Assembly (NCBI RefSeq): GCF_005503555.1
Contig: NZ_SCNG01000004.1
Location: 186,001 to 250,000 of the forward strand
Origin: Rudaea sp. 3F27F6
GTDB taxonomy: Bacteria; Pseudomonadota; Gammaproteobacteria; Xanthomonadales; Rhodanobacteraceae
Length of the DNA: 64,000 bases
Direction: 5' to 3'
The notes beneath the pieces were generated by a model. That model made no database searches. It saw nothing but the letters and a program-made list of their open reading frames with translations, and had not been told where the DNA came from. Of the stretch, positions 7,443-23,177 are shown piece by piece (the first letter of the stretch is position 1; each line of letters opens with the position of its first letter). The translations under genes were made by a program, and so were the position numbers.

Positions 7443-7456
7443 TGTAATCGTTTCCA
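7443..7456. promoter_or_regulatory. LacI-type operator at the beta-glucosidase gene
   Basis: TGTAATCGTTTCCA matches the sites near lacI at 23133-23146 and 23164-23177 in 11 and 13 of 14 positions respectively. It lies 26 bases before the beta-glucosidase ATG and just downstream of a TATTCT -10-like box (7434-7439), a position suited to repression. Confidence 0.65.
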
Positions 7457-7482
7457 ACGCAGTCAACACCAAGGATGCAGGC

Positions 7483-8838
7483 ATGTCGCAACGTGTGCAG
7501 TTCCCCGCGAATTTTCTTTGGGGCGCGGCAACGAGCGCGTATCAGATAGAAGGCTCGCCGCTCGCCGACGGCGCGGGGCCGAGCATCTGGCAACGCTTCA
7601 CCCGCACGCCGGGCATGATGGCGAACGGGGATACCGGCGACGTCGCCTGCGATCACTACCACCGCTGGAAGGATGACGTCGCGCTGATGAAGCGGCTCGG
7701 GCTGCAGGCCTACCGTTTCAGCATCGCCTGGGCGCGCGTGCTGCCTGACGGGCGTGGCCGGGTCAACGACAAGGGACTGGATTTCTACAGCGGCCTCGTC
7801 GACGAATTGCTGCGCAACGACATCGTGCCGCTGCCGACCCTGTTTCACTGGGATCTGCCCGCCGCGCTCGACGATCGCGGCGGCTGGCTCAATCCCGACA
7901 TCGCCGCCTGGTTCGCCGAGTATGCGCAAGTGATGTACGCGAAGCTCGACGACCGCGTGCAGCAATGGGCGACGCTCAACGAACCCTGGGTGGTCAGCGA
8001 CGGCGGCTATCTGCACGGCGCGCTCGCGCCGGGCCATCGCAGCAAGTGCGAGGCGCCGATCGCGAGCCACAACCTGCTGCGCGCGCACGGTGCGGCGGTA
8101 CAGGCGTACCGCGCGATCGGCAAGCATCGCATCGGCGTCGTGGTCAACATCGAACCGAAGTACGCGGCGACGCAAAACCCGGCAGATCTCGCCGCGGTCA
8201 AGCGCGCCGACGCGTATATGAACCGGCAATACCTCGACCCGCTGCTGCTCGGCACCTATCCCGAGGAACTCGCCGACATCTTCGGCGAAGCGTGGCCGTC
8301 GTGGCCGGCAGAAGACATGGCGCTGATCAAGCAGCCGATCGACTGGCTCGGGGTCAACTACTACACGCGCAACGTCACCCGCTTCGACGCGGACAGCTAT
8401 CCGCTCCAGGCCACGCCGGTGAAGCAGAACGCGACCTACACCGAGACCGGCTGGGAAGTGTATGCGCAGGGACTCACCGACACGCTGACCTGGATCCAGC
8501 AGCGTTACGGAAACCCGCCGGTCTACGTCACCGAAAACGGCGCGGCGTTCTACGATCCGCCGCAGGCCGAGAACGGCGCGATCGACGATCCGTTGCGCGT
8601 GAGCTATTTCAAAAAACATCTCGCGGCGGTCTCCGACGCGATCGCGCAGGGCTGCGATATACGCGGCTACATGGCTTGGTCGCTGCTCGACAATCTCGAA
8701 TGGTCGCTCGGTTTCTCCAAGCGTTTCGGCATCGTGCACGTCGACTTCGCCACGCAGCAGCGCACGATCAAGGCCAGCGGCAAGCTCTATGCGGACGTGA
8801 TCGCGAGCAACGGCGCGGTGTTGAACGAGGCGTCATAG
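7483..8838 (+). CDS. GH1 family beta-glucosidase
   Basis: 451-aa cytoplasmic glycoside hydrolase family 1 enzyme; hydrolyses beta-linked glucosides (cellobiose, sophorose, laminaribiose type) to glucose. The ATG at 7483 gives the standard N-terminus FPANFLWGAATSAYQIEG; no signal peptide. Acid/base E167 lies in TLNEPW, and nucleophile E351 in YVTENG. The C-terminal WSLLDNLEWSLGFSKRFGIVHVD motif is complete. Length is normal for the family. It is convergent with the alpha/beta hydrolase gene (12 bases between stops) and carries a LacI-type operator in its leader, which ties it to the glucan operon on the other strand. Confidence 0.95.
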   Translation: MSQRVQFPANFLWGAATSAYQIEGSPLADGAGPSIWQRFTRTPGMMANGDTGDVACDHYHRWKDDVALMKRLGLQAYRFSIAWARVLPDGRGRVNDKGLDFYSGLVDELLRNDIVPLPTLFHWDLPAALDDRGGWLNPDIAAWFAEYAQVMYAKLDDRVQQWATLNEPWVVSDGGYLHGALAPGHRSKCEAPIASHNLLRAHGAAVQAYRAIGKHRIGVVVNIEPKYAATQNPADLAAVKRADAYMNRQYLDPLLLGTYPEELADIFGEAWPSWPAEDMALIKQPIDWLGVNYYTRNVTRFDADSYPLQATPVKQNATYTETGWEVYAQGLTDTLTWIQQRYGNPPVYVTENGAAFYDPPQAENGAIDDPLRVSYFKKHLAAVSDAIAQGCDIRGYMAWSLLDNLEWSLGFSKRFGIVHVDFATQQRTIKASGKLYADVIASNGAVLNEAS

Positions 8839-8850
8839 ACGCCCGCGGAC

Positions 8851-10050
8851 TCAAGGCAGCTTGCCCGACGCCGGCCGCTTGCCGTTGTCCACCCAATCGA
8901 CGAGCTGATCGAACGCGCGCGCGATTTCCGCCGGCTTGAACACGCAGTGGCCTTCACGGTTGACGTACTGCTGGACGAAATTGTCGCCGTAGCCTGCGCG
9001 CTGCGCGCTCAATGCGTATTCGAAGACACTCGCCGCCGGCACGAGCGGATCGCCGACGTCGTGCACGGCGAGCATCGGCCGCGTGAGTTTGCCGCTCGGC
9101 GTATACCAGCGCGCGAGCCACGCGCTCGCCTTCGGATCGGCGCGATAGCGGCGCACGCCGTCGTTGAGTGCAGCGTCGTCGCCCGAGTTCACGTAGATGA
9201 GATCGGCATTGCCGAGCGGGTTGCCGTGCGCACGCTGCTGGGCGTCGCGGAAATCGCTCAGCGTGTCGGCGATCACGTCGGGCAACGACTTGGCGTCGGC
9301 CGTCCCGTACCAACGCAGCAGTGCAGCCCGCGCCGTGGGTTTGGTTGCGAGCGCGCCCGCGATCTTGTGCGTGACGGTCTTGTCGGCAACGTAGTCGGCC
9401 GGCACCGGAACGAGCGGCGGCAGTACGCCGGGAAAGTAGAAATCGAAAGCCGCGGCAAGCGCGAATTCGCGCTGCATGAGTCTGTCACTCGGCTCGATCG
9501 CGCCGCACAGCGACAGCGCACCGGCGTAAATTTGCGGCTGGGTTTCGATCGTCAGCGCCGTCAGCGTGCCGCCCATGGACATGCCCATCACGAGAAACTG
9601 AGCCGCCTCGCCATGCTGCGCAACGAAGTGCTGGCGCAATTGCTCGGTTTCTTTCGCGGCTTCTTCTATCGCCCAGCCGCCGGCGGAATAGCCTGACTGG
9701 ATCACCGCATACTTGCGCTGCAGCAGCGGCGCGAACATCGGCGACAGCGCCTCATCGGCGCGGAAAATTACGGGCGTTTCCGACGTGCCGTGAAAGAAGA
9801 CGACGACGCGATGATTCCAGTCCGGTGGAACGTCGATGCGATACGAGGCGCCTGCGAGCGTGCCTATTTCGACGGTCTTGGTGTTTTCGCCGTGCGCCAG
9901 TGGAACGAGAAGGATCGCGACAAACACGACAAAAGCTCTGCTCGTCGTTCCAGCGAAAGCTGGAATCCAGCTTTTGTTCTTTTGCAAAAAGCAGGATGAG
10001 AAAAAACTGGATTCCAGCTTTCGCTGGAATGACGACAGGGAAAATCTCAT
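8851..10050 (-). CDS. Alpha/beta hydrolase (esterase/peptidase type) with REP-encoded N-terminus
   Basis: The frame from ATG 10050 gives 399 aa. Catalytic features are GMSMGGTLTA (nucleophile Ser), HDVGDPLVPA (Asp) and NREGHCVFKP (His), so an alpha/beta hydrolase acting on esters or peptides; substrate unknown. Residues 8-36 are simply the translation of a REP-like inverted repeat, followed by a normal signal peptide (VFVAILLVPLAHG). The original start may be the GTG at 9927, giving about 358 aa, but the ATG at 10050 overlaps the permease stop as ATGA, which favours coupled translation from there. Last gene of the glucan ABC operon; could deacylate the imported sugar. Confidence 0.82.
   Translation of the reverse strand: MRFSLSSFQRKLESSFFSSCFLQKNKSWIPAFAGTTSRAFVVFVAILLVPLAHGENTKTVEIGTLAGASYRIDVPPDWNHRVVVFFHGTSETPVIFRADEALSPMFAPLLQRKYAVIQSGYSAGGWAIEEAAKETEQLRQHFVAQHGEAAQFLVMGMSMGGTLTALTIETQPQIYAGALSLCGAIEPSDRLMQREFALAAAFDFYFPGVLPPLVPVPADYVADKTVTHKIAGALATKPTARAALLRWYGTADAKSLPDVIADTLSDFRDAQQRAHGNPLGNADLIYVNSGDDAALNDGVRRYRADPKASAWLARWYTPSGKLTRPMLAVHDVGDPLVPAASVFEYALSAQRAGYGDNFVQQYVNREGHCVFKPAEIARAFDQLVDWVDNGKRPASGKLP
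9943..10036. repeat. REP-like inverted repeat pair inside the hydrolase 5' end
   Basis: Left arm about 9943-9970 (contains TTCCAGCGAAAGCTGGAA) and right arm about 10007-10036 (contains TTCCAGCTTTCGCTGGAA) are near-perfect reverse complements separated by 36 bases. The arms are themselves palindromic and share the GGAATGACG end with the repeat at 5719-5748. They are translated as FQRKLESS and SWIPAFAGTT. Confidence 0.85.
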
Positions 10051-10886
10051 CCTTTCACGCTCCCGAGCAACAAACCTTGCAGATATTGGCGCTGCAGCAC
10101 GAGGAACAGCAGCAGCACCGGCAATACCGTCACGACCGAACCGGCCATCATGAATTCATAGTCCTGCACGTGCTCGCGCGACACGGCGAGGCTGGCGAGA
10201 CCGACCGGCGCCGTCTGCCGGGCTTGGTCGCTCAGCACGATCAAAGGCCACATGAAATCGTTCCAGCTCGCGAGAAACGTCAGCACGGCAAGCGTAGCGA
10301 TCATCGGCTTGAGCAGCGGCAGCACGATAGAGAGAAAAATTGTCCATTCGCCGGCGCCGTCGATGCGTGCCGCCTCGATCAAATCGTCGGGAATCGAACG
10401 TGCGTACTGGCGCACGAGGTAGATGCCGAGCGCAGTCGCGAGCGCCGGCGCGATCACGCCGCCGTAGCTATTGACCAAGTGCAGCCACTTCATCAGCAGG
10501 AACAGCGGAATCATCGCGATCTGCAGCGGGATCAGCAGCGCGGCGAGCACGAGTTGGAACAGACGGTCGCGGCCGGCAAAACGCAGTTTCGCGAAGGCGT
10601 AGCCCGCGCTCAAATTGAAGGCGAGCGAAAGCACGGTGACCGTGCCCGCGATCAGCAAACTATTGAGCAGGTAGCCGCCCATGCCGCCGCGCTCGAACAG
10701 ATCGCGGTAGTTGGCCAGCGTGGCCTTGGCCGGCAGCAGCGGCGGTGGATAGTGGCTCGCCTCGCCGGGCTGCATGAAGGACACCGACAGCATCCACAGC
10801 AGCGGCAGCAGGGTCAGCACGGCGCCGCCGATCAACAGCCCGTTGACGATCCATATCGCCGCGCGCGAATTCGTGCCGGCGCTCAT
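10047..10886 (-). CDS. ABC sugar transporter permease (MalG-like)
   Basis: 279-aa inner-membrane permease of the CUT1 carbohydrate ABC family with six hydrophobic segments. The EAA loop motif is EAARIDGAGEWTIFLSIVLP, where the permease contacts the ATPase. The start at 10886 overlaps the stop of the upstream permease (ATGA). Together with its partner permease and the lipoprotein at 11928-13214 it makes an importer for a glucan-derived oligosaccharide. No ATP-binding subunit is encoded nearby. Confidence 0.93.
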   Translation of the reverse strand: MSAGTNSRAAIWIVNGLLIGGAVLTLLPLLWMLSVSFMQPGEASHYPPPLLPAKATLANYRDLFERGGMGGYLLNSLLIAGTVTVLSLAFNLSAGYAFAKLRFAGRDRLFQLVLAALLIPLQIAMIPLFLLMKWLHLVNSYGGVIAPALATALGIYLVRQYARSIPDDLIEAARIDGAGEWTIFLSIVLPLLKPMIATLAVLTFLASWNDFMWPLIVLSDQARQTAPVGLASLAVSREHVQDYEFMMAGSVVTVLPVLLLFLVLQRQYLQGLLLGSVKG

Positions 10887-11764
10887 GCGGTCTCGCCCCT
10901 GGCGCGCGCGAGGCGCAGCAGCAGGCGCGTGATCGCGAAGATCAGCGCGAACAGAATGAAGGCGATCGCGCTGGCGCGGCCGAGGTTCCACCATTTGAAG
11001 CCCTCCTCGTACATGAGGTAGAGCACGCTGACCGTGGACTGCAGCGGGTCGCCACGCGTCATCACGTACGGTTCGGCGAACAACTGGAAATAGCCCGCCA
11101 TCGTGATGATCGCGACGAGCAGCAACACCGGACGCAGGCCGGGAAGAGTGATATGCCAGAACTGGCGCCGGCGCGAGGCGCCATCGATGCACGCGGCCTC
11201 GTACAAGTCCTGCGGAATCGCCTGCAAGCCGGCGAGCAGGATGATCATGTTGTAGCCGAAATTTTTCCATACCGCGAACAGCGCGAGCGCGGGCATCGCC
11301 CAATGCGGATCGCCGAGCCAGTCGATCGGGCCGATGCCGAGGAAACTCAGGCCATAGTTGATCAGGCCGTAGCGTGTATGGAACAGATAGCGCCAGATCA
11401 CCGCGACCGCAACGACCGTGGTCACCACGGGCGCGAACAACGCGGTGCGGTGGAAGCCCTTGAACCGCGCGAGCGGCGAATTGAGCAGCAGCGCCGCGCC
11501 GAGCGAGGCCGCGAGCGACAGCGGCAGCGAGAGCACGACGAACCAGACCGTATTGCCGAGCGCTTTCCAGAACAGCGGCGTGTTGAAGATATCGAGATAG
11601 TTGCCAAAGCCGACGAAGCGCATGTTGTCGAGATTCGCAAGCGCGTAGAGGTCGAAGTCCGTCAGACTCAACAGCAACGCAGCGCACACGGGCAGCACGA
11701 GGAATACGCCGAGCACGAACAGCGCGGGCGCGACGAAAGTCCAGGCGCTGCGCTGCGAGTTCAT
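10883..11764 (-). CDS. ABC sugar transporter permease (MalF-like)
   Basis: 293-aa CUT1-family permease with the N-terminal TM1-periplasmic loop pattern typical of MalF/UgpA-type subunits (FVAPALFVLGVFLVLPVCAA, then FVGFGNYLDIFNTPLFWKAL). EAA motif EAACIDGASRRRQFWHITLP. Heterodimer partner of the downstream permease, with which it shares a 4-base ATGA overlap. A gap of 163 bases, containing a dispersed repeat, separates it from the binding-protein gene. Confidence 0.93.
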   Translation of the reverse strand: MNSQRSAWTFVAPALFVLGVFLVLPVCAALLLSLTDFDLYALANLDNMRFVGFGNYLDIFNTPLFWKALGNTVWFVVLSLPLSLAASLGAALLLNSPLARFKGFHRTALFAPVVTTVVAVAVIWRYLFHTRYGLINYGLSFLGIGPIDWLGDPHWAMPALALFAVWKNFGYNMIILLAGLQAIPQDLYEAACIDGASRRRQFWHITLPGLRPVLLLVAIITMAGYFQLFAEPYVMTRGDPLQSTVSVLYLMYEEGFKWWNLGRASAIAFILFALIFAITRLLLRLARARGETA

Positions 11765-11771
11765 AGCTTTA

Positions 11772-11823
11772 TCTTCCCTTCTCCCATCGGGAGAAGGTGC
11801 CCCGAAGGGGCGGATGAGGGAAG
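11772..11823. repeat. Dispersed repeat between binding-protein and permease genes
   Basis: The sequence has two nested hairpins, TTCTCCCATCGGGAGAA and GCCCCGAAGGGGC, ending in GGATGAGGGAAG. This CCCTCTCCC/GGGTGAGGG-type unit is widely dispersed in proteobacterial genomes. A degenerate second copy (CCCTCATTCGGCGCTG) follows near 11875. It may attenuate permease expression relative to the binding protein. Confidence 0.55.
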
Positions 11824-11927
11824 AGCCTTACATAACCGAATTGAATTGAAGAAGTCCAACTCCCTCCCCTCATTCGGCGCTGTGGACATCGCAAGTTTGC
11901 TCAGCGAGAGAAGGTAGGCACGCACAC

Positions 11928-13214
11928 TCATGGCTTCGCCCCCTTCGCCAACAGCGACCGTCTCTTAGCAAGAATCACGTCGTCGATTTTCGCATCGAGC
12001 GCGCGCAACGCGCTGTCCGCGCTTTCACCGCCACGCACGACGCGCTCGGCGGCAAGCTGCATCTCGTTGGCGATGCGTTCCCACTCGGGCACCTTCGGCG
12101 TCGGCTTAACCCGTTCGAGCTGGTCGCGGAATGCGTGCGTATATTCGTCGGTTTCCAGCTCCTCGAAATCCCAGGCGCTACGCCGCGCGGGCAGGTCGCC
12201 GGTCAGCGAGTAGAAGCGCTGCTGCTGCTCCACTTCGGAAAGAAACTCGACCAGTTCCCAGGCGAGCTGTTTATGTTTCGACGCGCGGAAGATCGCGAAG
12301 CTCGATCCGCCGGCTGCGCCGCCGCCCGGTCCGTCCGCGCCGGGCAGCGGCGCCGTGCCCCAATGGCCCTGCACGTCGGTCGGCAGGCGCCGCTTGAATT
12401 CGCCGATGTTCCACGGGCCGGTGATGTAGAAGGCGAAGTAGCCTTTGCCGAATTCGTCCCAGACGTTGGCGATCTGCGTGTTGCTCATCGGCGGCGCCCA
12501 GTTCTCGCGGAACGCCTCGACATAGAAGTCGAGTGCGCGGCGGAATCCCGCGCTTTCGAAGTTGCCGCGCGTGCCGTCGTCGACCAGCAGCGGATCGGGC
12601 TGTTGGATGGCGAGATTGAGCAACGGCTCGAATTCGTTGAGCGGCAGGAAGATCGCGTACTTGTCCGCGCCCTGGCTGCGCTTGATCGCGGCCATCGCGC
12701 GGCGCCATTCATCCCAGTCGCGCGGCGGATCTTCAAAACCCGCCGCAGCGAGCAGATCTTTGCGATAGAAGAGCAGACGCGTATCGACGTACCACGACAC
12801 GCCGTAGAGGCCGCCGTCGACGACGTTCGTGTCCCAGATGCCGGCGAAATAATCGTCGCGGCGCACGACGTTCGATTTGTCCACATAGGTCTGCAACGGC
12901 TCCAACGCGCCGAGCGCGGCGAACTCGGGAATCCAGGTGTTGCCAAGCTGACACAGGTCCGGCAAGGCATCGCCGGCGAACGCGGTCAACAGCTTTTCGT
13001 GCGCGGCCGTGAGCGGCATGTTCTGCACGACCAAGTGTACGCCGGGATGCGCACGCTCGAACTCGACGAGCAGTTCGCCGACGACCTCCCCCTCGCGGCC
13101 GAACGTCCAGAACTTGAGCGTCGTTTCCTGCTTCGCGGGCGCGCATGCGCAGAGGGCGGCCAACGCCGCCCACGTCGCGATTCGCGCAAACCTCCCCGCC
13201 CCGCTTTTTGCCAC
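11928..13214 (-). CDS. Extracellular sugar-binding lipoprotein of ABC transporter
   Basis: 428-aa family 1 solute-binding protein. N-terminus ARIATWAALAALCACAPAKQ is a lipoprotein signal with cysteine at the LCAC box, so it is membrane-anchored in the periplasm. SBP-1 features: TLKFWTFGREGEVVGELL, PDLCQLGNTWIPEFAALG, YGVSWYVDTRLLFYRKDLL, GKGYFAFYITGPWNIGEF and GGSSFAIFRASKHKQLAWEL. It captures the oligosaccharide delivered by the TonB receptor. It lies 45 bases after the GH144 gene and is probably co-transcribed with it and the permeases. Confidence 0.92.
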   Translation of the reverse strand: MAKSGAGRFARIATWAALAALCACAPAKQETTLKFWTFGREGEVVGELLVEFERAHPGVHLVVQNMPLTAAHEKLLTAFAGDALPDLCQLGNTWIPEFAALGALEPLQTYVDKSNVVRRDDYFAGIWDTNVVDGGLYGVSWYVDTRLLFYRKDLLAAAGFEDPPRDWDEWRRAMAAIKRSQGADKYAIFLPLNEFEPLLNLAIQQPDPLLVDDGTRGNFESAGFRRALDFYVEAFRENWAPPMSNTQIANVWDEFGKGYFAFYITGPWNIGEFKRRLPTDVQGHWGTAPLPGADGPGGGAAGGSSFAIFRASKHKQLAWELVEFLSEVEQQQRFYSLTGDLPARRSAWDFEELETDEYTHAFRDQLERVKPTPKVPEWERIANEMQLAAERVVRGGESADSALRALDAKIDDVILAKRRSLLAKGAKP

Positions 13215-13259
13215 GACACCTCCCCAATCAACGGTTGCCGCGGATGCCGCCGCGCCCGT

Positions 13260-14759
13260 TTACTTTTTCGCCGTCTCGTCGAGCCAGCCGCCGGTGAAGC
13301 CGGCGCGCTTCAGGCCTTCGCGAATATACGGATTCTTGCGCATCGTTTTCCAGATGAAGTCGCTGCGGTAGTTCTCGATCATCGTGACGATCGGGCCCTG
13401 GTCGATGCCGATATAAAGCGTATCGAACCAGCCCTTGCCCGGCACGACGCGGCCGGTGCGCAGCGGTCGGTCGGTGAAGGTGAAACTCGGATTGAATCCA
13501 TCGACGAAACCGTACTTGGTGTACAGGTCGTCGCCGTAGCGCTTCTGCATTTCCTCGATCGCGGGGATGACGATTTCCGGCGCGAACGCGATCGAGCCGA
13601 TCGCCGCGGTCGGCGCGATCGTGCCGTCGTCGACCGAATAGCCGAGACCGGCGCCGCGCGCGATGTAGCCGTAGAACGGCTTCGGATCGTTCGCGTAGCG
13701 GTCGGGCTCGCCTTTGCGGCTGGCGCCGCGCGGGCCGTTGCCCGCGGTGAGGCCCCAGACGTTTGCGCCATAGTCTTTCCACTGCATCGGGTTATGGATG
13801 GCATATTCGCGCTGTGACAATGCGGCGCGCTTGCCGTTCTCGAAATAATCGATGCCCTTGTCACGCATGTAGTCGTCCTTGAGGCCGCGGAAATCGATCC
13901 AGGTGTGCGTGTACTGATGCCAGAACGCGGGACCGGCGCCGAGATGAGTCTGTCCTTGGAATTCGCCCCAGGTCTTGCCGTAGGTCTGCGTCCAGCGCGT
14001 CCAGGATTCCGGGCCTAGTGCGTGCGTCGGCGAGCCGAGCGCGAGGATGTACAAACCGAACGCTTCGCTGTAGCCGCGGTAGTAGTTGTAGTCGAACCCG
14101 TTTTCGGGCGTCCAGCCGCCCTGCACGAGCGGATTGCCGTCACTGAACCAGCGCCAGTCGACGCGGCGGAAAAGCTCGTCGGCCAGGCGGCGGATTTCTT
14201 CTTCGTCCTTGGTGTTGCGATCGTAGTAGGACTGCGCGAAGAGCACACCGTACATGAGCCAAGCGGTATCGACGGAAGACAGCTCGACCCAACGCGATGA
14301 ATTGAAGCGCTTGCCCGTCTCCATGTCGAGGAAGTGGTAGAAGAAGCCGTGATAGCCCGCCGCATCCGCCGCATCGCTCTGCGGCGCGTCGTGGAAGAAG
14401 CGCAACGCTGCCAAGGTGCGCTTGACCGCCTCGCCACGCTTCATCCAGCCGCGCTCGACGCCGATCCCGTACGCGGTCAGACCGAAACCGACCGAAGCGA
14501 TCGAGGCGAAGTAGTCGTTGCCCGGCACCTGCGGCCAGTGATCCGGCATGAGCCCGTTCTTCGTATTCGCGCCGTCGACGAAGTATTCGAACGTGCGCTT
14601 CTCCACATCGTCGAGCATCGCCTGCTGCGCCTTCGGCAGCGCGGCGAATCCGCTCGGCGGTGCCTTGGCGAGCGCGGCATCCTGCCAGCCCGCGGCAAGC
14701 ACTAGCAAGGCGATGAAAACGTTTACATTCAACATTCGAACGTAGTTGCTGAAGCTCAT
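13260..14759 (-). CDS. GH144-like secreted glucanase (putative glucoamylase family)
   Basis: 499-aa protein of the 'putative glucoamylase' Pfam group, whose characterised members are GH144 endo-beta-1,2-glucanases. Signal peptide is at residues 9-31 (MLNVNVFIALLVLAAGW...ALA). Family landmarks: DDVEKRTFEYFVDGANTKNG, SIASVGFGLTAYGIGVERGW, GFFYHFLDMETGKR, SSVDTAWLMYGVLFAQSYY, GRVVPGKGWFDTLYIGIDQGP. Periplasmic action on glucan is inferred. The ATG at 14759 has GAGG five bases upstream and is preferred over the one at 14735. A LacI-type operator (14714-14727) lies inside codons 11-16. Exact linkage specificity cannot be read from sequence. Confidence 0.85.
   Translation of the reverse strand: MSFSNYVRMLNVNVFIALLVLAAGWQDAALAKAPPSGFAALPKAQQAMLDDVEKRTFEYFVDGANTKNGLMPDHWPQVPGNDYFASIASVGFGLTAYGIGVERGWMKRGEAVKRTLAALRFFHDAPQSDAADAAGYHGFFYHFLDMETGKRFNSSRWVELSSVDTAWLMYGVLFAQSYYDRNTKDEEEIRRLADELFRRVDWRWFSDGNPLVQGGWTPENGFDYNYYRGYSEAFGLYILALGSPTHALGPESWTRWTQTYGKTWGEFQGQTHLGAGPAFWHQYTHTWIDFRGLKDDYMRDKGIDYFENGKRAALSQREYAIHNPMQWKDYGANVWGLTAGNGPRGASRKGEPDRYANDPKPFYGYIARGAGLGYSVDDGTIAPTAAIGSIAFAPEIVIPAIEEMQKRYGDDLYTKYGFVDGFNPSFTFTDRPLRTGRVVPGKGWFDTLYIGIDQGPIVTMIENYRSDFIWKTMRKNPYIREGLKRAGFTGGWLDETAKK
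14714..14727. promoter_or_regulatory. LacI-type operator within the glucanase 5' coding region
   Basis: TGAAAACGTTTACA, matching the reverse-palindromic sites at 23133 and 23164. It sits 33-46 bases inside the glucanase ORF, so it would act as a downstream roadblock, or the transcription start lies close to the start codon. Confidence 0.6.
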
Positions 14760-14914: not shown

Positions 14915-15862
14915 TCAATGACTGCAATACGTCTGCATCACGAGAACCGCCTTTTCGTTCGCGGCACTCAGTTGCTGCGGCGTCAGTTGCTTGCCTTGAT
15001 CGGCGAGAAACGCATCGAACTCGGAAAGTGCATCGGGATCTCCGCCCTGGGAAGATATCTTCTTTCTCAAATACTGCTGAAGGCTAAGCCGATACGCGTA
15101 TGACTGTACCGCATCGGGCACGGCCCACTGCAGCTCGTTCAAAGCGCTGCAGTCCCCTTGCGCGAGGAGGTCGGAGGCAAACTGCGCGACAAGATCGCGG
15201 CGCCTTAGTGCTTCGTCCAAGTCCGCCGGTTGCAAGCCTTGTGTGCGGTATTCGTCGTAAGCCCAATGGGTGTAGTCGCGCTTGGCCTGTGCATCGCCTG
15301 CGAGGGCAGCGCGTTCGAGCCATTGCGGCCAAGAATCGATCTGCCCGCGCTCGAGTTTTGCACAGGACTCGTCGAGGGCTTTTCTGTTTTGCATGGCTTT
15401 CGCGACATTCTTGATCTGATCATCGGAAGAAGGGCGGCCTCCCCGGTTTTTCATTGCTGCTTCAACTTGCAATTGCACATCGATTTGTGCGGTCTCGTAG
15501 TCGGCGTCGCTGCGCTTGTCGCGGCGAGCGCATGCAGCCAGCGCCTGGCCCATCTCACGCATGGCATCCGGCACTCCGCGTGACGCGTCTTCCCGCCTGG
15601 CATCGACGACATGGTCAGGCAACGAATCACCCGGCGACAAGAAAGATCGCAGCTGATTCGAATCGATCGCGCTTTGTGCGCGCTCGTGCGGAACGACAAT
15701 CGCCGCATCGAATTGTTTTGAGTTATCCACGTTCCTCGCGAGACCACTGACCGTATTTCCCGATGACCCGGACCCGCGGTGGTGAATGATCTCAACGCCA
15801 ATCAAAATTCCTCCGGCCACCACGACGGCGCCAAGGATGGATTTCCAGAATATCGATCTCAT
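14915..15862 (-). CDS. Membrane-anchored hypothetical protein
   Basis: 315 aa. An N-terminal anchor (WKSILGAVVVAGGILIGVEI) precedes a hydrophilic, mostly helical periplasmic domain with several cysteines (ALAACARR, LDESCAKLE, QGDCSALNE, MQTYCSH). The stretch WLERAALAGDAQAKRDYTHW resembles a single Sel1-type helix pair, but no full repeat array is seen. Function not recognised. It lies between the glucanase and the halogenase on the same strand, 155 and about 70-bases-plus away from its neighbours. Codon use is ordinary for the window. Confidence 0.7.
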   Translation of the reverse strand: MRSIFWKSILGAVVVAGGILIGVEIIHHRGSGSSGNTVSGLARNVDNSKQFDAAIVVPHERAQSAIDSNQLRSFLSPGDSLPDHVVDARREDASRGVPDAMREMGQALAACARRDKRSDADYETAQIDVQLQVEAAMKNRGGRPSSDDQIKNVAKAMQNRKALDESCAKLERGQIDSWPQWLERAALAGDAQAKRDYTHWAYDEYRTQGLQPADLDEALRRRDLVAQFASDLLAQGDCSALNELQWAVPDAVQSYAYRLSLQQYLRKKISSQGGDPDALSEFDAFLADQGKQLTPQQLSAANEKAVLVMQTYCSH

Positions 15863-15929: not shown

Positions 15930-16262
15930 CTACGGCCCTACGGTGAGGTTGTAAGCCTGAGTATTCCAATAAGAATCACCGCCAAATCCATACGGCGTCG
16001 TCGTAACGGGATAGGTGCCAGCCGGCAGGTTCACCGGTCCGGTACATGTCCAGTGCGGCGTGAGGAAGGCACCGGGCGTGGTGCAGACGAACTGTCCGCC
16101 CACGTAGACGCTGTAGTAAGACGCGCCCGGAGCAGTCCGTCCCGCCCAGATATCGAACTGGACGGCCGTTTTCGGCCCCGTGGCGACAATGTTTGCAGCG
16201 TGACCCATGCCTGTTCCGACAAGAAGCAAAGCCAACGCAGCGGCAATCTGTTTCGCTTTCAT
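15930..16262 (-). CDS. Small secreted protein, unknown function
   Basis: 110 aa. The ATG at 16262 is chosen because GGAGGTTATGAG gives a strong ribosome site and the product starts with a signal peptide (MKAKQIAAALALLLVGTGMG, cleavage near HAA-N). The mature part is beta-rich with two cysteines in VCTTPGAFLTPHWTCTGP, followed by LPAGTYPVTTTPYG. This C-x-TP ... C-T ... P-x-GTY pattern recurs in the secreted protein at 18182-18652 on the other side of the halogenase gene, hinting at a shared fold. The longer frame upstream to 16475 has no signal and is rejected. Confidence 0.7.
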   Translation of the reverse strand: MKAKQIAAALALLLVGTGMGHAANIVATGPKTAVQFDIWAGRTAPGASYYSVYVGGQFVCTTPGAFLTPHWTCTGPVNLPAGTYPVTTTPYGFGGDSYWNTQAYNLTVGP

Positions 16263-16487
16263 CTCATAACCTCCGTCGTTCTGAAACACCGCGGCAACCC
16301 TTCCCAAGATTGCAGCCGGCAAGTGAGGCTCATCGTGAAGCAGCCCCGCGAATGGCATCTCGACGCCCAGCGCCTCAATGCGAGCAGCCCGTCCGGGCTG
16401 CAAACTCAATTCTGAAAATGATCCGACTAGAAACTCTCGCCTGCGTCGAATGGATGCGCAGATGTCGCACGCCACTGCAATACCAGA

Positions 16488-18002
16488 TCATGGCGCCGGC
16501 GCCTTGCAATAGCGATCGATGAATGCCTGGTGGGGAGGCATAAGGTCGACACAGTTGGCGATCACTTTCTTGATGCCACCGACAAATTCTTCGAGTTCGG
16601 CCTGGGGCATCTGGTCGACCATCGGATGCCAGCGCTCGGGGATGATGCGTTGCCCGATCATCACTTCGACCCAACTGGGTTGGGCGAACATTTCTTCGGC
16701 GTTGCGATAGAAGCGCCCGCTATCGCGGAACAAGCGGATGTTGTCGGCCAGTTCCTTCGGTATCGACATCGTGCGGCAATAGTTCCAGAACGGCGAGTCG
16801 TCGCGTTCGGTCGCGCAGTAATGCAGGATGATGAAATCGCGAATGCGTTCGATCTCGAACGCCGCCTGCGCGTTGTAGCGATCGCGAATCACATCGCTGA
16901 AACCACGATCTGGGAACAGATTAATCAAACGAGCAATCGCCGACTGGATCAGAAAAATGCTCGTCGATTCGAGCGGCTCGAGAAAACCGCTGGCCAAGCC
17001 GATCGCGACGACGTTCTTGTCCCAGCATTTCTTGCGCTGGCCCGGCACAAAACGCAGGACGCGCGGCGACCCGAGCGCGCGGCCGTCAATCCATTTCGTC
17101 AGATTGGCCGCCGCCTCGTCATCGCTGATATATTTGCTCGAATAGACGTAGCCGTTGCCGGTGCGGTGCTGCAGCGGGATGCGCCAGGTCCAGCCTGCTT
17201 CGCGCGCCGTGCAACGCACGAACGGCGTCGGCGGCCCAACGTTCTCGCACGGCATCGCCACTGCGCGATCGCAAGGCAGCCAGTGCGACCAATCTTCGTA
17301 GCCGGCCTTCAGGGTCTGCTCGATCAGCAATCCGCGAAACCCAGAGCAATCGATGAATAGATCGCCGGAAATCCTTTCGCCGTTCTCCATCACGACCGCA
17401 TCGATATAGCCGTCGCCCGGGCGCTGGATCACCCGGGTGACCTTGCCCTCGGTACGGCGCACACCGTGCTTTTCGGCGAACGTGCGCAAAAACTTGGCAT
17501 ACAGCCCCGCGTCGAAGTGGTAAGCGTAGGCGATATTCGCGAGGGGCGAGGCTTCATTGACGTCACCCGCCGAAGTCATGAACTTGCCTTTTACCGAAGC
17601 AAGCGTATTGAGTGAATAGTCGCCGATTTCGCTGGCGTTGCCTTGCTTGTGAGCCTTGAGCCAGTACTGATGGAACGGCACTGACGCGTAGTCATGCCCG
17701 ATTTGCCCGAAGCCGTGTACGTAGGAGTCGCCGATGCGCGCCCAATCGACAAATTCGATGCCGAGCTTAAACGTGCCCTGAGTCTGCTTGATGAAATCGA
17801 CTTCGATAATGCCAAGCGTGTGGTTGTAAGCCTTCAGGTGCGGAACAGTTGCCTCACCCACGCCTATAGTCCCTATTTCCTCAGACTCGATTAGTCGGAT
17901 CGAATAATCCCTGCCCATGATCTTGGCCAATCCGGCGGCAGCCATCCATCCGGCACTACCTCCGCCGACGACAACAATGCTCTTGATGCGATTGTCAGTC
18001 AT
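16488..18002 (-). CDS. Flavin-dependent tryptophan halogenase family protein
   Basis: 504-aa FAD-dependent halogenase family member. FAD-binding GGGSAGW motif at residues 13-19, the catalytic-type lysine K79 in QGTFKLG (same number as in PrnA), and the W-x-W-x-I-P motif (AGWTWRIPLQHR) are all present, so the fold and chemistry appear intact. In Xanthomonads and Caulobacter, genes of this subfamily cluster with TonB receptors and LacI regulators in carbohydrate loci; no natural-product genes are nearby here. The substrate is unknown and may not be free tryptophan. A near-palindrome TTCACCCATTGGATGAA lies 9-25 bases before the start. Confidence 0.9.
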   Translation of the reverse strand: MTDNRIKSIVVVGGGSAGWMAAAGLAKIMGRDYSIRLIESEEIGTIGVGEATVPHLKAYNHTLGIIEVDFIKQTQGTFKLGIEFVDWARIGDSYVHGFGQIGHDYASVPFHQYWLKAHKQGNASEIGDYSLNTLASVKGKFMTSAGDVNEASPLANIAYAYHFDAGLYAKFLRTFAEKHGVRRTEGKVTRVIQRPGDGYIDAVVMENGERISGDLFIDCSGFRGLLIEQTLKAGYEDWSHWLPCDRAVAMPCENVGPPTPFVRCTAREAGWTWRIPLQHRTGNGYVYSSKYISDDEAAANLTKWIDGRALGSPRVLRFVPGQRKKCWDKNVVAIGLASGFLEPLESTSIFLIQSAIARLINLFPDRGFSDVIRDRYNAQAAFEIERIRDFIILHYCATERDDSPFWNYCRTMSIPKELADNIRLFRDSGRFYRNAEEMFAQPSWVEVMIGQRIIPERWHPMVDQMPQAELEEFVGGIKKVIANCVDLMPPHQAFIDRYCKAPAP

Positions 18003-18010
18003 GCTTTGTT

Positions 18011-18027
18011 TTCACCCATTGGATGAA
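18011..18027. promoter_or_regulatory. Near-palindrome in the halogenase leader
   Basis: TTCACCCATTGGATGAA: TTCACCCA and TGGATGAA are reverse complements at 7 of 8 positions. It differs from the LacI-type operator of the locus, so it suggests a second regulator or a chance match. Confidence 0.3.
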
Positions 18028-18181
18028 ACGAGTGCGGATTCGTGAAAATCCACCCAGATCATCCTTTATGAAATTTTCATTAAAAATCGCATAAATCTTC
18101 TTGCCTGCTATAGACTGAATATGCCGTGACAAAAGACAGCAATATTTTTAATACATCCGTTTATTTCATGGAGTCATGCAG

Positions 18182-18652
18182 ATGAAAAAAACTTTTTCGA
18201 GTTTCATACTCTTCGCATTATCTATAACGAATGCCACGGCGGCAGCGATTTGCCTATCAGGCGAAGGCGCTTATTATTTCGTTGCCCCGTGCGCTCATGA
18301 TGGCTATCGAACTTCGTACATGTATTTTCATGTCTCAGGAAGTCAAATCGGCTGGTGGGGTGGATCGGAAGCCTATTCCGCTCCGGTTGCAGCTGTAGGC
18401 TACAAAATAGAAGGAGATGAAGCATCTTTTGACTGGAGTACCCTGCGACAATTTATCCACGATAAAGATATCAATCAAGATAACATTTATATTTGTGTAA
18501 CCCCTCAGATTCAAACTACACCAGTTGCGCTATGTACTCCGCAAAATAACGTGCCTCCAGGTACGTATATAATTGAAGCCCGTCCGCAAGGAACAGATAT
18601 TAACGTAAGTTTTAGTGTTGGCGTAGCCACATTTCCTTTGCCGTCCGGCTAA
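18182..18652 (+). CDS. Small secreted protein from an AT-rich patch, unknown function
   Basis: 156 aa. The ATG at 18182 is preferred to the one at 18176 because GGAG at 18170-18173 then has 8-base spacing. Signal peptide MKKTFSSFILFALSITNATA, then a Cys/Gly/Tyr-rich, probably beta-sandwich domain (ICLSGEGAYYF, SYMYFHVSGSQIGWWGG, IYICVTPQ, ALCTPQNN, VPPGTYIIEARPQG). Codon use is much more AT-rich than the neighbours (many AAA, ATT, TAT), a sign of recent transfer. It is divergent from the halogenase gene. The C-x-TP...CT...P-x-GTY pattern is shared with the protein at 15930-16262. Confidence 0.7.
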   Translation: MKKTFSSFILFALSITNATAAAICLSGEGAYYFVAPCAHDGYRTSYMYFHVSGSQIGWWGGSEAYSAPVAAVGYKIEGDEASFDWSTLRQFIHDKDINQDNIYICVTPQIQTTPVALCTPQNNVPPGTYIIEARPQGTDINVSFSVGVATFPLPSG

Positions 18653-18702
18653 ACCTCGAAGACGAAATCAGAGTTCGGCGCAATACCTGAAAAATCAGAA
18701 CT

Positions 18703-18727
18703 GGGGCGATGGCACGTCCATCGCCCC
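18703..18727 (+). terminator. Hairpin after the small secreted protein gene
   Basis: GGGGCGATGG and CCATCGCCCC form a 10-bp perfect stem around CACGT, 50 bases after the stop at 18652. No T tract follows. Confidence 0.45.
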
Positions 18728-18915
18728 CTCTACCCCAACGGACACGTGCCGGGCCACATCCAGACCAGAAGTTCGAGCATTTGAGGTTGCAGGCGTACCT
18801 CGAATGAACGATGTTGCTTATAGCAACCCCCGACCTCGAACATCTTCGGCACTTGAGGCTATGTTCTTCCCTAGATAAGGAAATAGCTTTCACCTCAATC
18901 CAGGTGACGCCCTAA

Positions 18916-18943
18916 GACAAAGCCCGCCGAAGCGGGCTTTGTC
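18916..18943 (-). terminator. Terminator-like hairpin after the TonB receptor gene
   Basis: GACAAAGCCCGC and GCGGGCTTTGTC form a 12-bp perfect stem with loop CGAA, 21 bases past the receptor stop. The stem contains the AAA/TTT run; it can act in both directions between the convergent genes. Confidence 0.7.
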
Positions 18944-18964
18944 TCGAAACAGACGAGCGCATCG

Positions 18965-21900
18965 TCAGAAGCGGAAACCTGCGGTCAGCTTGACCGTGCG
19001 TACAGGAGTCCACGTGTCCCCATTGGTGTTGAAGAGTGCGATGGGGTGATACACACCGTTGCTGCCCCAGTTGATCAGGTAGTCCTTGTAGTTGATGAAG
19101 TTGAAAATATTGATCGCGTCGAGACGGACATAGAACGTCATACCGCGGGTCAAATCGAAATTCTTGTTCACCGAAAGATCGATCTGGCGCACGCCGAAGA
19201 TCGGCCCTCCGACCAAGAAACTCTTTCCCGGCGGATTGACTGCCGCATAGAACCGAGCAGGGATTCCGTTGGGCGGCCCGCCAATATCCCCCTGACTTTT
19301 GACATCGTTATATGGAGAGGTCGTCTCCAACGTCAACTTGCCGGTAAAAGTCATGTCCCACCAGCCATCGTAGGTGCCAGTTGCCACGAAGCGGTGCTTG
19401 GGCACCGCTGCAAGCGGAATAAATGGGTAATCGTGGATCGTCGCTCCGTCGAACGCGTAGTGTTCGTCGCCGCCACGATTACCTCTTGCGTGCGAGTAGG
19501 TATACGCAAAGGTGGCGCCCCAGCCCGAATCTCTGGTGTACGGCTTTTCAGCCGACAGCAACAGCTGAGCCGTCTTGGTTTCAATGCCGTTGTCACCCAG
19601 GATCAGCGCACCCAGGCCGGGAGGAGAGTTACCCCACGGCTGGCCGCCGTCCTTGAAGAACGAACCGTCCGGGTAGCGATTACCAAGAGTGAATGCGAAC
19701 CCGTCCTTGCTATGGAGATACGCCAGCGTGGCGCTCGTGTTCCAGTCACCAACTTTGTTGCGCATGCCAATGCTGAACTGATCCGTGTACGGCACTTTTA
19801 GGTTGTTGTTGAGCAGATCAACTTCCGAATTGCGCCCTTTCGCCGTAACCAAAGACGCCAAGGCGCCCATACCGCCGAGATACTTCGGATCCCAATTCAC
19901 ACAGGTATTAGACGGGTTGCATCCGGCCACGGGATTGAAGAAAACATCGGTCTCGGTCAACGCACCTTTGACCGGCTCCAGCCCCATGTAGTCGAACAAG
20001 TTGCGATCGTAGCTTCGTCCAGCGCCGCCGTAGATCACATGTTCCTGGTCACCATTGAGGTCGTAGGAGAAGCCCAGGCGAGGAGCAAACGAATCCTTCG
20101 GCGTCTTGCGGTTGTGGCCGTTGCTGATGTAGTCGTTGATGTTGATGCCGCCCTTGGCCAACGACTGTGCGTAGGTCTGACCTGCCGGCGCGTTGGGATC
20201 CTGCGCATTGAATGCCGCGATCGCTTCCGGGAAAGTGACGAAGTTTTCGTACGAGGGAATTTTCTCGTAGTCCCAGCGCACGCCGAGATTGAGCTGAAGT
20301 TTGTCGTTGACGTCCCAGTCATCTTGGATGTACAGGCCGTACTGCTTGTTCTTGGAAGTTATGATCGGCGACGTGCCGGGGAATGGGGTGCTGAACTTGA
20401 CCAAGTACGGCGGCAAGTTGGCCGGAAAGTTTGGGCCGATGGCGTAGAAGAACTGCGGATTGATCGCCGCATTCTCCGACTGGGTCAGCTCGACCTGCTT
20501 GATCTTGAAGCCCATCTTGATGGTGTGGTCGCCCATCCAGTTGAGGTTGTTGAAGGTCAGGTCGTCCTGGATTGCTGGGCCCTTCTGTCCCTTGTCTTGG
20601 ATCGACAGGCCCGAGGTCGCGTCGGTCCGCAACACCAGTTTGTTCTGGTCAGTGCCGTTGGTGTAGTTGTTCTGATTACCGAAGGTGTAGGCCGTCGGAT
20701 TGTAGAACGCGCTTTCATAGGTGAGCTTCAGGTCGTTGTACCAAGAGTCAGCCGTGTGCTCCCAACGCAGGTCGTAGCGTTTGTCATTGTTGGCCAGCTT
20801 CTTCGATGCCGATGCCGCCGTTTGATCGCCTACGTCGTCGCGGCCAGCCTCGTTGCGATATTTCGCGCTCACCTCGATGCGGTCCCGATCACCGATCTCC
20901 CAGTCGATCTTGCCGAAATAGAGATCCTCGAAGAACGGTTTGTTGGTCGGGCCCAACTGTGCGCGTGCCGCGGGCGGGAGGTATTGATCGAGGCCGACCA
21001 GGTCGCCCGGCTTCACCGTTTGTGGTGTGGAGAAATTTTTTCCTTCATAGGAGAAGAAAAAATGCATCTTGTCCTGGATGATCGGGCCGCCGATGGCAAA
21101 GCCGAACTCGTCCGTATAGGTGGGAACCTTACCGTTGGCATTGGCCTCGGCTGGTGTGCGCGCACGCCAATCTTGATCGCTGTGCGTGCCGAAGACTTCA
21201 CCGTGAAACTCATTCGTTCCCGACTTGGTCTGCGCAACGATCGCCGCGCTGCCGATCTGATCGAACTCAGCCTTGTAGTTCGAGGTGATAACCTTGTATT
21301 CGCCGATCGCAAGCTGCGGAAACGGATTACCTTGGCTCTGATCCTGGCCTGACACGCCGCCGGTCAGCACGTAGCCCTTCTGGCCGACGCCATCGATGTA
21401 AACATTGATCGCACTCGTCGTCTGAGCACCTCCGCGCAACTGCGTATGACCGTCGCTGTCGACCTGGAATTTCATGCCGGGGACGGTGTCGGCGAATTCG
21501 AGGAAGTTGCGCGTGATCTGCGGAATCCGGCGAATCTGCTCAAGCGATACGTTGGTCCCAATTTCCGAGGTCTTCACTTCGGTTAACGCCGTCCCTGTAA
21601 CGGTAATGCCTTCGAGCGTCGCCGCCCCGGTAGAAGGTGCGGTCGCTCCCGTCGGCGCAGCAAAGTCGAGCGTGCCCGTGGTCGCCACGGCGAGGATGAC
21701 GACTTTTTCCGTACCGGGACCGGCGTCGACTTGATATCGGCCAGGCGGTAGGCCGACCAGGGCATAGCTGCCGTCGGCAGCGCTCGTCGTAGTGCGGCGT
21801 AAGCCGGTGTCGAGATTTTTCGCGGTGACCTGCATCTGCGGCGGCGCCTTGCCGCGTAAACCGGCATCCGACGATTGCGCCCAACTCATCGCCGGCATCG

Positions 21901-21973
21901 CCACAGTGGCAATGACGGCGCTGCGAATCAGTGAGGCGAGGATTTTCTTCTTAAAGGGCAGTGGCTTTCTCAT
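18965..21973 (-). CDS. TonB-dependent receptor, Oar-like
   Basis: 1002-aa outer-membrane receptor. The ATG at 21973 follows GGGAGGAGAACTC and starts a signal peptide (MRKPLPFKKK ... AMSWAQ). Order: a carboxypeptidase-regulatory-like domain at about residues 40-100 (TTTSAADGSYALVGLPPGRY), a TonB-box-like stretch (LEGITVTGTALTE), plug (IRRIPQITRNFLEFADTVPG; INVYIDGVGQKGYV), then a large beta-barrel ending in VKLTAGFRF with terminal Phe. The barrel pattern (EFGFAIGGPIIQDKMHFFFS) is that of Oar-like receptors. It lies directly after a LacI gene on the same strand (86 bases), so a carbohydrate, most likely a glucan, is the expected ligand. Confidence 0.93.
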   Translation of the reverse strand: MRKPLPFKKKILASLIRSAVIATVAMPAMSWAQSSDAGLRGKAPPQMQVTAKNLDTGLRRTTTSAADGSYALVGLPPGRYQVDAGPGTEKVVILAVATTGTLDFAAPTGATAPSTGAATLEGITVTGTALTEVKTSEIGTNVSLEQIRRIPQITRNFLEFADTVPGMKFQVDSDGHTQLRGGAQTTSAINVYIDGVGQKGYVLTGGVSGQDQSQGNPFPQLAIGEYKVITSNYKAEFDQIGSAAIVAQTKSGTNEFHGEVFGTHSDQDWRARTPAEANANGKVPTYTDEFGFAIGGPIIQDKMHFFFSYEGKNFSTPQTVKPGDLVGLDQYLPPAARAQLGPTNKPFFEDLYFGKIDWEIGDRDRIEVSAKYRNEAGRDDVGDQTAASASKKLANNDKRYDLRWEHTADSWYNDLKLTYESAFYNPTAYTFGNQNNYTNGTDQNKLVLRTDATSGLSIQDKGQKGPAIQDDLTFNNLNWMGDHTIKMGFKIKQVELTQSENAAINPQFFYAIGPNFPANLPPYLVKFSTPFPGTSPIITSKNKQYGLYIQDDWDVNDKLQLNLGVRWDYEKIPSYENFVTFPEAIAAFNAQDPNAPAGQTYAQSLAKGGININDYISNGHNRKTPKDSFAPRLGFSYDLNGDQEHVIYGGAGRSYDRNLFDYMGLEPVKGALTETDVFFNPVAGCNPSNTCVNWDPKYLGGMGALASLVTAKGRNSEVDLLNNNLKVPYTDQFSIGMRNKVGDWNTSATLAYLHSKDGFAFTLGNRYPDGSFFKDGGQPWGNSPPGLGALILGDNGIETKTAQLLLSAEKPYTRDSGWGATFAYTYSHARGNRGGDEHYAFDGATIHDYPFIPLAAVPKHRFVATGTYDGWWDMTFTGKLTLETTSPYNDVKSQGDIGGPPNGIPARFYAAVNPPGKSFLVGGPIFGVRQIDLSVNKNFDLTRGMTFYVRLDAINIFNFINYKDYLINWGSNGVYHPIALFNTNGDTWTPVRTVKLTAGFRF

Positions 21974-22059
21974 GAGTTCTCCTCCCAAGGCGAACATTTC
22001 TAAGTGGCTGTGTTACTACGTTTCTTGATTGCGGCGATGTTGCGATTCTTCTCCCGGTT

Positions 22060-23058
22060 TCAGTGGCCGCCGGAGCTGGCACGCACAACGACCTCGCAGG
22101 CCAGGGTCGGTGCGGCACGGCGTTGTTGATTCGGCTTCTCGATCGCGATGGCGACGCGTTCGAGTGCATTGCGACCAAGATCGGCGATGCGTACGCGCAC
22201 GGTGGTCAGAGCCGGCGTGACGTAGCGCGCGATCGGGATGTCGTCAAAGCCCGCGAGCGCGACGTCCTGCGGCACAGAAAGGCCGGCCTCGGTGAATGCA
22301 CGCAGGCAACCGACGGCCATCATGTCGTTCGCCGCGAATACGGCGCGCGGCGACTTGCCGCCTTTCGCGAGTGCGCGGCCGGCGGCATAGCCGGAGTCTT
22401 CGCTGAAATCGCCTTTCACGACTTTCACGGCGGCCTTCGGCGCGAATGCGGTCATCGCTTCGCGATAGCCGCGCTCGCGCTGCTGCGCGTCGAAGTTGTC
22501 TTCGGGGCCGCTGATGAAGGCGACGCTCGTGTGGCCCGCATCGAGCAGATGCCGGGTCATCGCGTGTGCGCCGCCGTAGTTGTCGATATTGAGCACGTCG
22601 AACTGCGGGCTCTTGAGCGCGGAGTTGAGCAGCACGGCGGGCGTGGATTCCGGCAGGTTCGCGCGCAGAAACGCAGCGTCGACGTGCGGGGAGAGGATCA
22701 GCATGCCGTCGACGCGGCCCTGCATCGCGCGCAGCGCGGTAGCGGCCTCGTCGGTATCGCCATGCGAAGAGGAGACGAGCAGGTGCAGACCTCGCGCGCG
22801 CGCGGCGAGATCGATGCCGCGAATCAGCTCGGAGAAGAATTCGCCGTACAGGTCAGGCAGCAGCGCGCCGATCGTCTGCGTGCGCTTGGTGATCAGGCTG
22901 CGCGCGGCGCTGTGGGGCACGTAGCGCAGGCGCGCGGCGATACTGGTGATGCGCTGGCGCGTCTCGTCGGTGACGGAGGTGTGGCCGTTGAGTGCGCGCG
23001 ACACCGAAGCCACGGACACCCGTGCCTCGCGCGCGACATCACGTATGGTTACCGCCAT
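22060..23058 (-). CDS. LacI family transcriptional repressor
   Basis: 332 aa. N-terminal helix-turn-helix TIRDVAREARVSVASVSRAL (residues 4-23) and hinge helix, then a periplasmic-binding-protein-like sensor domain (DLYGEFFSELIRGIDLAARA; VDGMLILSPH; VAFISGPEDNFDAQQRERGY; AGFDDIPIARYVTPALTTVR). Such regulators bind palindromes centred on CG. Two near-identical sites of that kind lie 75-119 bases before its own start, and others at the beta-glucosidase and glucanase genes, so it probably autoregulates and controls this locus. The effector is likely a mono- or disaccharide released by the glucanase. Confidence 0.94.
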   Translation of the reverse strand: MAVTIRDVAREARVSVASVSRALNGHTSVTDETRQRITSIAARLRYVPHSAARSLITKRTQTIGALLPDLYGEFFSELIRGIDLAARARGLHLLVSSSHGDTDEAATALRAMQGRVDGMLILSPHVDAAFLRANLPESTPAVLLNSALKSPQFDVLNIDNYGGAHAMTRHLLDAGHTSVAFISGPEDNFDAQQRERGYREAMTAFAPKAAVKVVKGDFSEDSGYAAGRALAKGGKSPRAVFAANDMMAVGCLRAFTEAGLSVPQDVALAGFDDIPIARYVTPALTTVRVRIADLGRNALERVAIAIEKPNQQRRAAPTLACEVVVRASSGGH

Positions 23059-23132
23059 GCCTTCCGCCCTCCCGCGTAGTGCATATGACGTTGTTTACGG
23101 CTCGTGCCAGCAAGCTTGCCTATCGTTATTTC

Positions 23133-23146
23133 TGCAAACGTTTACA
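23133..23146. promoter_or_regulatory. LacI-type operator O1 upstream of lacI
   Basis: TGCAAACGTTTACA, nearly perfect palindrome around CG. Its centre is 31 bases from that of the second site, about three helical turns, suited to cooperative binding. Confidence 0.75.
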
Positions 23147-23163
23147 CGACACGCGGTGCGCAA

Positions 23164-23177
23164 TGTAAACGTTTCCA
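23164..23177. promoter_or_regulatory. LacI-type operator O2 upstream of lacI
   Basis: TGTAAACGTTTCCA, the same palindrome as the site at 23133-23146 with two changes. It has the same right half (CGTTTCCA) as the operator before the beta-glucosidase gene. Confidence 0.75.

Follow-up and report, generated by a model that had tools for sequence, protein, structure and literature searches.

In a stretch of 64,000 nucleotides from Rudaea sp. 3F27F6 (contig NZ_SCNG01000004.1, positions 186,001 to 250,000; hereafter the window) a lacI gene lies close to genes for the uptake and degradation of a glucan, which raises the question of whether one regulator controls them together and where it would bind. 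An earlier note on this DNA had proposed such a regulator, acting through four 14-mers that share a CG-centred palindrome, and we found all four at the positions it gave. Two precede lacI (22060-23058, minus strand), at 23164-23177 (TGGAAACGTTTACA on the coding strand, at 105 bp from the lacI start codon) and at 23133-23146 (TGTAAACGTTTGCA on the coding strand, 74 bp from the start codon and 31 bp from the first operator). A third, at 7443-7456 on the plus strand (TGTAATCGTTTCCA), lies 26 bp before the start codon of the GH1 beta-glucosidase gene. The placement at GH1 and twice before lacI was thus as described, whereas the site assigned to the glucanase (14714-14727, minus strand, TGTAAACGTTTTCA on the coding strand) lies inside the reading frame, in the signal-peptide codons, and not in front of it. 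Very likely, in our view, the locus forms a local LacI-family regulon under its own control, which serves the uptake and degradation of beta-1,2-glucan or its oligosaccharides. The proposal of one regulator for import and degradation is strongly supported by the conservation of the sites, with the changes that the glucanase site is intragenic, that no separate site is called for at the receptor and that the glucan is narrowed, by homology, to beta-1,2-glucan.

To scan the window we used TGWAAWCGTTTMCA as the query, allowing up to two mismatches on both strands. This gave nine strand-hits at five places against 0.95 expected, and none of 100 shuffles reached nine; the fifth place, at 451, is a weaker hit on one strand only. 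For the genome-wide search the exact pattern TGNAANCGTTTNCA was derived from the four sites themselves, so that this search is partly circular. It occurs at 11 places in the 5.70-Mb genome, and four of these are the window sites, gathered within 15.7 kb where 0.03 would be expected (P ~2e-8). The earlier note had named sites scattered at random density as the result that would speak against it, and the exact sites are instead clustered. Similarly, four of the six exact places in the genome of R. cellulosilytica fall in its own locus, and the 31-bp operator pair recurs, its second member being weaker, in R. cellulosilytica (L169) and in locus L063. A chance origin of the sites was rejected on the window shuffles, the genome clustering and the reversed controls across relatives described below.

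We then compared the locus with those of relatives. From 532 loci ranked by glucanase similarity, the best 80 were taken as the core set, 63 of which have a LacI orthologue beside the glucanase; those closest to the window come from Rudaea, from other Rhodanobacteraceae or from metagenome-assembled genomes. Together with 12 additional loci and the window this made 93 loci. Three additional loci repeat core genomes (L157 is L088, L164 is L071 and L168 is L134), leaving 90 loci without repeats. To count as conserved, a site had to match at 12 or more of the 14 positions and to lie no more than 200 bp upstream of a gene, and the reversed sequence, searched in the same way, served as control. In the 90 loci (1.72 Mb) we found 185 sites against six in the control. 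The lacI gene has such a site in 69 of 72 loci and GH1 in 41 of 49, with 0/72 and 0/49 in the control, which gave no upstream site in any gene class. With the repeats included the counts are 71/74 and 43/51, and in the core loci alone 59/62 and 37/45. Within 260 bp, a site precedes lacI in 60 of the 63 core loci with LacI (49-89% identical). Upstream sites are rare before the glucanase (5/56), the receptor (2/67) and the halogenase (1/29), and none was found before the importer genes (binding protein 0/77, malF 0/80, malG 0/78, or 0/235 in all) or, in four loci, before the hydrolase gene. Without the repeats, the GH1 site and LacI occur together in 41 loci and are both missing in four, while four loci have LacI alone and one the site alone. 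This last locus (L134) is that of R. cellulosilytica, where lacI (87% identical, with its operator too) lies just upstream of the stretch compared. Because the GH1 sites track LacI, and the one locus with the site alone has lacI and its operator just outside the stretch, we read the comparison as a well-conserved local regulon around this LacI, with the conserved palindromes near its own gene as predicted LacI binding sites.

The lacI product (332 aa) has the domains of the LacI/GalR family, an N-terminal helix-turn-helix (PF00356, 4e-14) and a periplasmic-binding-protein-like core (PF13377, Peripla_BP_3, 1.6e-35); no NCBIfam equivalog scored above its cut-off. We infer that simple repression, the favoured mode, would work as follows. 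In the absence of substrate a LacI dimer would occupy the TGWAAWCGTTTWCA palindromes, so that the operator pair before lacI would shut off lacI and the receptor gene behind it, the operator 26 bp before GH1 would close the GH1 promoter, and the intragenic operator would block the promoter of a glucanase-importer unit or halt the polymerase just after its start. A sophoro-oligosaccharide or one of its breakdown products would release the repressor. A DNA loop of the Lac type is less likely, since the 332-aa LacI of the window seems to lack the C-terminal stretch through which Lac repressor forms tetramers.

The proposed substrate follows from the enzymes and the importer. Among solved structures, the best match to the glucanase (13260-14759, minus strand, PF10091) is XCC2207 (8xul, E 4e-180, over residues 47-494). 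XCC2207, or XcSGL, is a GH144 enzyme with a narrow action on beta-1,2-glucan (PMC12102758). Residues E232, F279 and Y365 of the window glucanase align with the clan residues E239, F286 and Y367 of XcSGL, if the chain offset of 14 that we deduced from the letters is correct; with this offset the crystallised XcSGL chain reads Q at 239. The similarity over the full length and the clan residues both place the glucanase in GH144, with endo-beta-1,2-glucanase as its predicted activity. The sugar-binding protein of the importer (11928-13214, minus strand, SBP_bac_1) matches 3uor, which we take to be X. citri MalE (E 2.7e-164), and Lin1841 (5ysb, E 2.4e-62). Given the relation of the window protein to Lin1841, the ligand of 3uor may be beta-1,2-gluco-oligosaccharides rather than maltose. 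Lin1841 binds Sop3-5, and in Streptomyces griseus a GH1 enzyme beside an ABC importer handles beta-1,2-gluco-oligosaccharides (PMC12369401). Because the glucanase resembles XcSGL, the binding protein resembles Lin1841 and the pairing of GH1 with an importer has a parallel in Streptomyces, the substrate of the regulon is probably beta-1,2-glucan.

The glucanase site covers nucleotides 33-46 of the reading frame, in the codons AAT GTA AAC GTT TTC ATC (MSFSNYVRMLNVNVFIALLVL) that encode VNVF of a signal peptide read by eye. Like lac O2, it is an operator within the coding sequence of the unit that it would regulate. In an ungapped comparison of five glucanase genes (window, L060, L061, L063 and L134) the operator is the sole window with 14 of 14 conserved positions in the first 120 nucleotides; non-overlapping 14-base windows have 0-8. 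In L061 the operator is retained by a solitary glucanase gene, which has neither lacI nor receptor within 10 kb. The LacI of this genome (70% identical) is encoded at another place, where a site precedes it and the complete locus is present; the second glucanase there (60% identical) has no such intragenic site. Since the lone gene keeps its operator away from the LacI locus, the intragenic site appears to serve the glucanase gene itself. A glucanase start downstream of the operator was rejected: the operator codons form the core of the L061 signal peptide, which has no later in-frame ATG, GTG or TTG. The operator is missing from L062, where VNV is spelled in ordinary codons, and from the 5' end of the L059 glucanase. 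In Dyella lutea (L101:9898) the region of the glucanase start has a weaker palindrome (GGTAAACGTTTTCG), by eye again at VNVF, which was excluded from the counts.

Coding operators were also found in the receptor genes of relatives. Since 11 of the 12 additional loci were fetched because of their receptor plug site, proportions of second operators were taken from core loci only, and the three repeats were excluded from the codon counts (plug and signal peptide) and the tree. The plug palindrome lies about 580-610 nucleotides into the gene and reads T GTA AAC GTT T[AT]C in the motif VNV[YF]IDG. It is carried by seven core loci (four Rhodanobacter, two Dyella and one metagenome-assembled genome) and nine additional loci, in one of which (L167) it ends in TTT. 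With a stricter plug pattern, all nine genomes found and two more from a set of 147 family genomes carry the plug operator in the glucanase locus, and it is common to two receptor types that are only 40% identical. In seven Dyella loci the palindrome [AC]GTAAACGTTTACT lies instead in the receptor signal peptide, in a different frame (SKRLL or RKRLL). A look-alike at VNDY, about +1850 in some receptors, seems to reflect protein sequence and was not counted. Downstream of lacI a second operator is present in 25 of the 63 core loci (plug seven, signal peptide seven, glucanase two, before the glucanase six, lacI-receptor gap three), and at least 16 of the 63 have an operator in a coding region. 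In the loci with no second site, a lower threshold brought up mostly VNV[YF] in ordinary codons and VNDY. On a tree of 70 loci the minimum numbers of changes are at least seven for the plug site, two for the signal-peptide site, four for the glucanase sites and two for the lacI-receptor gap; the seven plug changes are a parsimony minimum on a quick tree that includes plug-selected loci. The ten members of a Dyella-type clade, nine core loci and one added for its plug site, have exactly one receptor-borne operator each, seven in the signal peptide, three in the plug and none in both.

Such coding sites could have arisen by accident, from the protein sequence (VNVF, VNVY, SKRLL) together with the choice of codons, and have no function. 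Indeed the conserved VNV[YF] in ordinary codons already matches 11 of the 14 operator positions, and some receptors have the similar VNDY look-alike. The codons themselves argue otherwise. Perfect operators occur in seven of the 27 core receptors with the plug motif, against 0.0026 expected from locus codon usage. Among the 46 plug motifs, found in 46 of the 147 family genomes, GTA and GTT travel together (both in 11, GTA alone in one, GTT alone in none, neither in 34; Fisher 9e-10, uncorrected for kinship). The signal-peptide site is spelled with TTA, a codon used 0-3 times among the 290-310 Leu codons counted per locus, and at the glucanase 5' end no other window is fully conserved. We regard an accidental origin as very improbable; the codon counts indicate that the receptor plug operator is maintained by selection beyond the protein sequence, acting on synonymous codons in the relatives. 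With rather less confidence, we lean towards the view that the Rhodanobacteraceae regulon often keeps a second, repeatedly relocating and mostly coding operator, in the plug, the receptor signal peptide, the glucanase signal peptide or intergenic gaps, for which near-operator motifs would be landing places reached by few synonymous changes.

If the sites are operators, it has to be asked which protein binds them and which genes they serve, and several observations weigh against the regulon as we propose it. Many LacI-family proteins use palindromes of this kind, and the genome has seven further LacI-family genes, which makes eight. Seven exact TGNAANCGTTTNCA places lie outside the locus, some beside possibly unrelated genes (GH39, an inositol-type cluster and one of unknown kind), and the GH39 site is found in two of the four other Rudaea genomes searched. 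With one mismatch allowed, the genome gives 68 strand-hits, and the backward pattern 54, an excess so small that only near-exact sites carry weight. A sigma-70 scan recognised no promoter near the operators, 38 of the 63 core loci have no second operator downstream of lacI at the near-consensus threshold, no such site is present at the 5' end of the second glucanase that the genome encodes (C16, 71% identical), and the assignment to beta-1,2-glucan rests on homology. It could therefore be that another LacI-family paralogue or a CcpA-type global regulator binds the sites and that the neighbouring lacI does not encode their main regulator. However, of the eight LacI-family genes, the window lacI is the only one whose 3-kb locus contains such a site; GH1 sites are missing, within the stretches fetched, in all four loci that lack this LacI (with L168 the only repeat taken out, and L134, whose lacI is just outside, set aside); and the locus holds four of the 11 exact places. 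Control by another regulator thus appears improbable. A further possibility is that the sites are true operators, with the receptor and the halogenase under separate control, as the earlier note had suggested. Its observation that no site lies directly before either gene in the window was correct, and in three relatives (L092, L094 and L111) the receptor has its own site immediately upstream. The halogenase gene is 962 bp from the receptor gene, and the two are parted by an inserted, low-GC open reading frame (ORF) on the opposite strand and by a terminator-like hairpin (18703-18727, minus strand; 10 pairs, eight of them G-C; a consensus match only, in a region with 13 terminators against 10.4 in shuffles and so no clear excess). 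For the halogenase, separate control may hold. The receptor ORF, in contrast, starts 62 bp past the end of lacI, behind both lacI operators, and follows lacI within 400 nucleotides in 61 of the 63 core loci with LacI, in 60 of which operators precede lacI. Because of this short distance and conserved order, lacI and the receptor gene are probably co-transcribed, with the lacI operators serving the receptor. Separate control of both genes is in our judgement rather unlikely, and the local regulon around the adjacent LacI is the reading that we retain.

Some exact sites outside the locus can be described further. An exact TGAAAACGTTTACA lies at C8:829913-829926, 44 bp before the GH39 (beta-xylosidase-like) gene, and recurs in L180 and L194; it is possible that it marks a distant member of the regulon or the target of a paralogue. 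The site TGTAATCGTTTTCA at C9:924985-924998 is flanked by a Pirin gene and a FemAB/GNAT-like gene, and the same genes and site are found in L184 and L196, so that this site too recurs beside the same genes in two of the four other Rudaea genomes. Further exact places are C9:542969, near the inositol-type cluster, and C12:455079, near the gene of unknown kind. Within the R. cellulosilytica locus (L179:6583-11500) there are additional genes: another halogenase gene, a PhyH oxygenase gene preceded by a perfect operator (TGTAAACGTTTACA) and, on the opposite strand, a gene with distant similarity to GH144 (27% identity).

Apart from GH1, the genes from lacI to the hydrolase are on the minus strand. 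Behind lacI lies the TonB-dependent receptor with a CarboxypepD_reg N-terminus (18965-21997; PF25183, PF00593 and PF13620), followed by the tryptophan-halogenase-family flavoenzyme (16488-18002; PF04820, E 1.5e-196), which has no operator of its own here. A halogenase-family enzyme within the glycan-uptake cluster is also seen in 24 of the 63 core loci with LacI. The low-GC ORF between receptor and halogenase (18176-18652) has a signal-peptide-like start and no Pfam family, and it looks like an insertion. Two ORFs between halogenase and glucanase (15930-16475 and 14915-15862) also have no Pfam family. Beyond the binding protein are the two importer permeases. The first (malF-like, 10883-11764) was read from its ORF and translation, and its orthologue adjoins the glucanase in many relatives; the second (malG-like, 10047-10886) has BPD_transp_1 in an ORF at 10047-11687, with its start taken from the translation. 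The alpha/beta hydrolase (8851-10050; PF00326 and PF02230, both weak) is found within the cluster or close to it in some of the relatives. Its N-terminus (SFQRKLES...WIPAFAGTT) presumably reads like a translated intergenic repeat, so that the true start may lie further inside the ORF. The GH1 beta-glucosidase (7483-8838, plus strand; PF00232, E 2.7e-158; NCBIfam TIGR03356 above cut-off) faces these genes and has no signal peptide evident by eye. A PNGase-A family protein (PF12222) is encoded near the regulon at 24274-26205.

For a beta-1,2-glucan locus, of a kind whose enzymes are only now being described, this analysis supplies a regulator, operators and a likely substrate. Dozens of relatives form a natural series in which intragenic operators can be compared and selection read from the codons chosen, and the role and origin of these operators can be addressed by synonymous mutations alone. 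Operators inside genes have been described for the LacI family but are uncommon: a survey of the family places less than 1% of sites within coding regions and names lacZ and purB (PMC4052901). Our literature searches on intragenic or internal LacI-family operators turned up no relocation within one conserved regulon, which weakly suggests that repeated relocation is the new element here. The same survey describes the BglR1-3 and GluR regulons of Caulobacterales, which resemble the Rudaea locus in their LacI-family regulators, beta-glucoside operons and local regulation but belong to Alphaproteobacteria; its main text makes no mention of Xanthomonadales, Xanthomonas, Stenotrophomonas or Rhodanobacter (PMC4052901). 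In Listeria innocua (lin1838-1843), the LacI gene lin1838 was proposed as the regulator of a beta-1,2-glucan cluster and, as here, lies beside an ABC importer with a homologous binding protein (Lin1841), but this Gram-positive cluster has the phosphorylase Lin1839 and a GH3 enzyme in place of GH144 and GH1, and we met no description of its operators (PMC3960220). X. campestris has the homologous glucanase XCC2207 (XcSGL), and locus tags suggest that the TonB receptor XCC2208 adjoins it, as a receptor does here; we met no regulator or operator described for it (PMC12102758, PMC1790865). Our 80 core loci include no Xanthomonas locus. In E. coli, lac O2 lies inside lacZ and gal OI inside galE. 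The Rudaea locus resembles lac, gal and PurR-purB in its LacI/GalR-family repressor, in its palindromic operators and in an operator within the coding sequence of the regulated unit. Its LacI, unlike Lac repressor, seems too short for the tetramer end, and the locus differs from lac, gal and purB in that the regulator gene heads the regulated unit and the gene or place of the intragenic operator differs between lineages.

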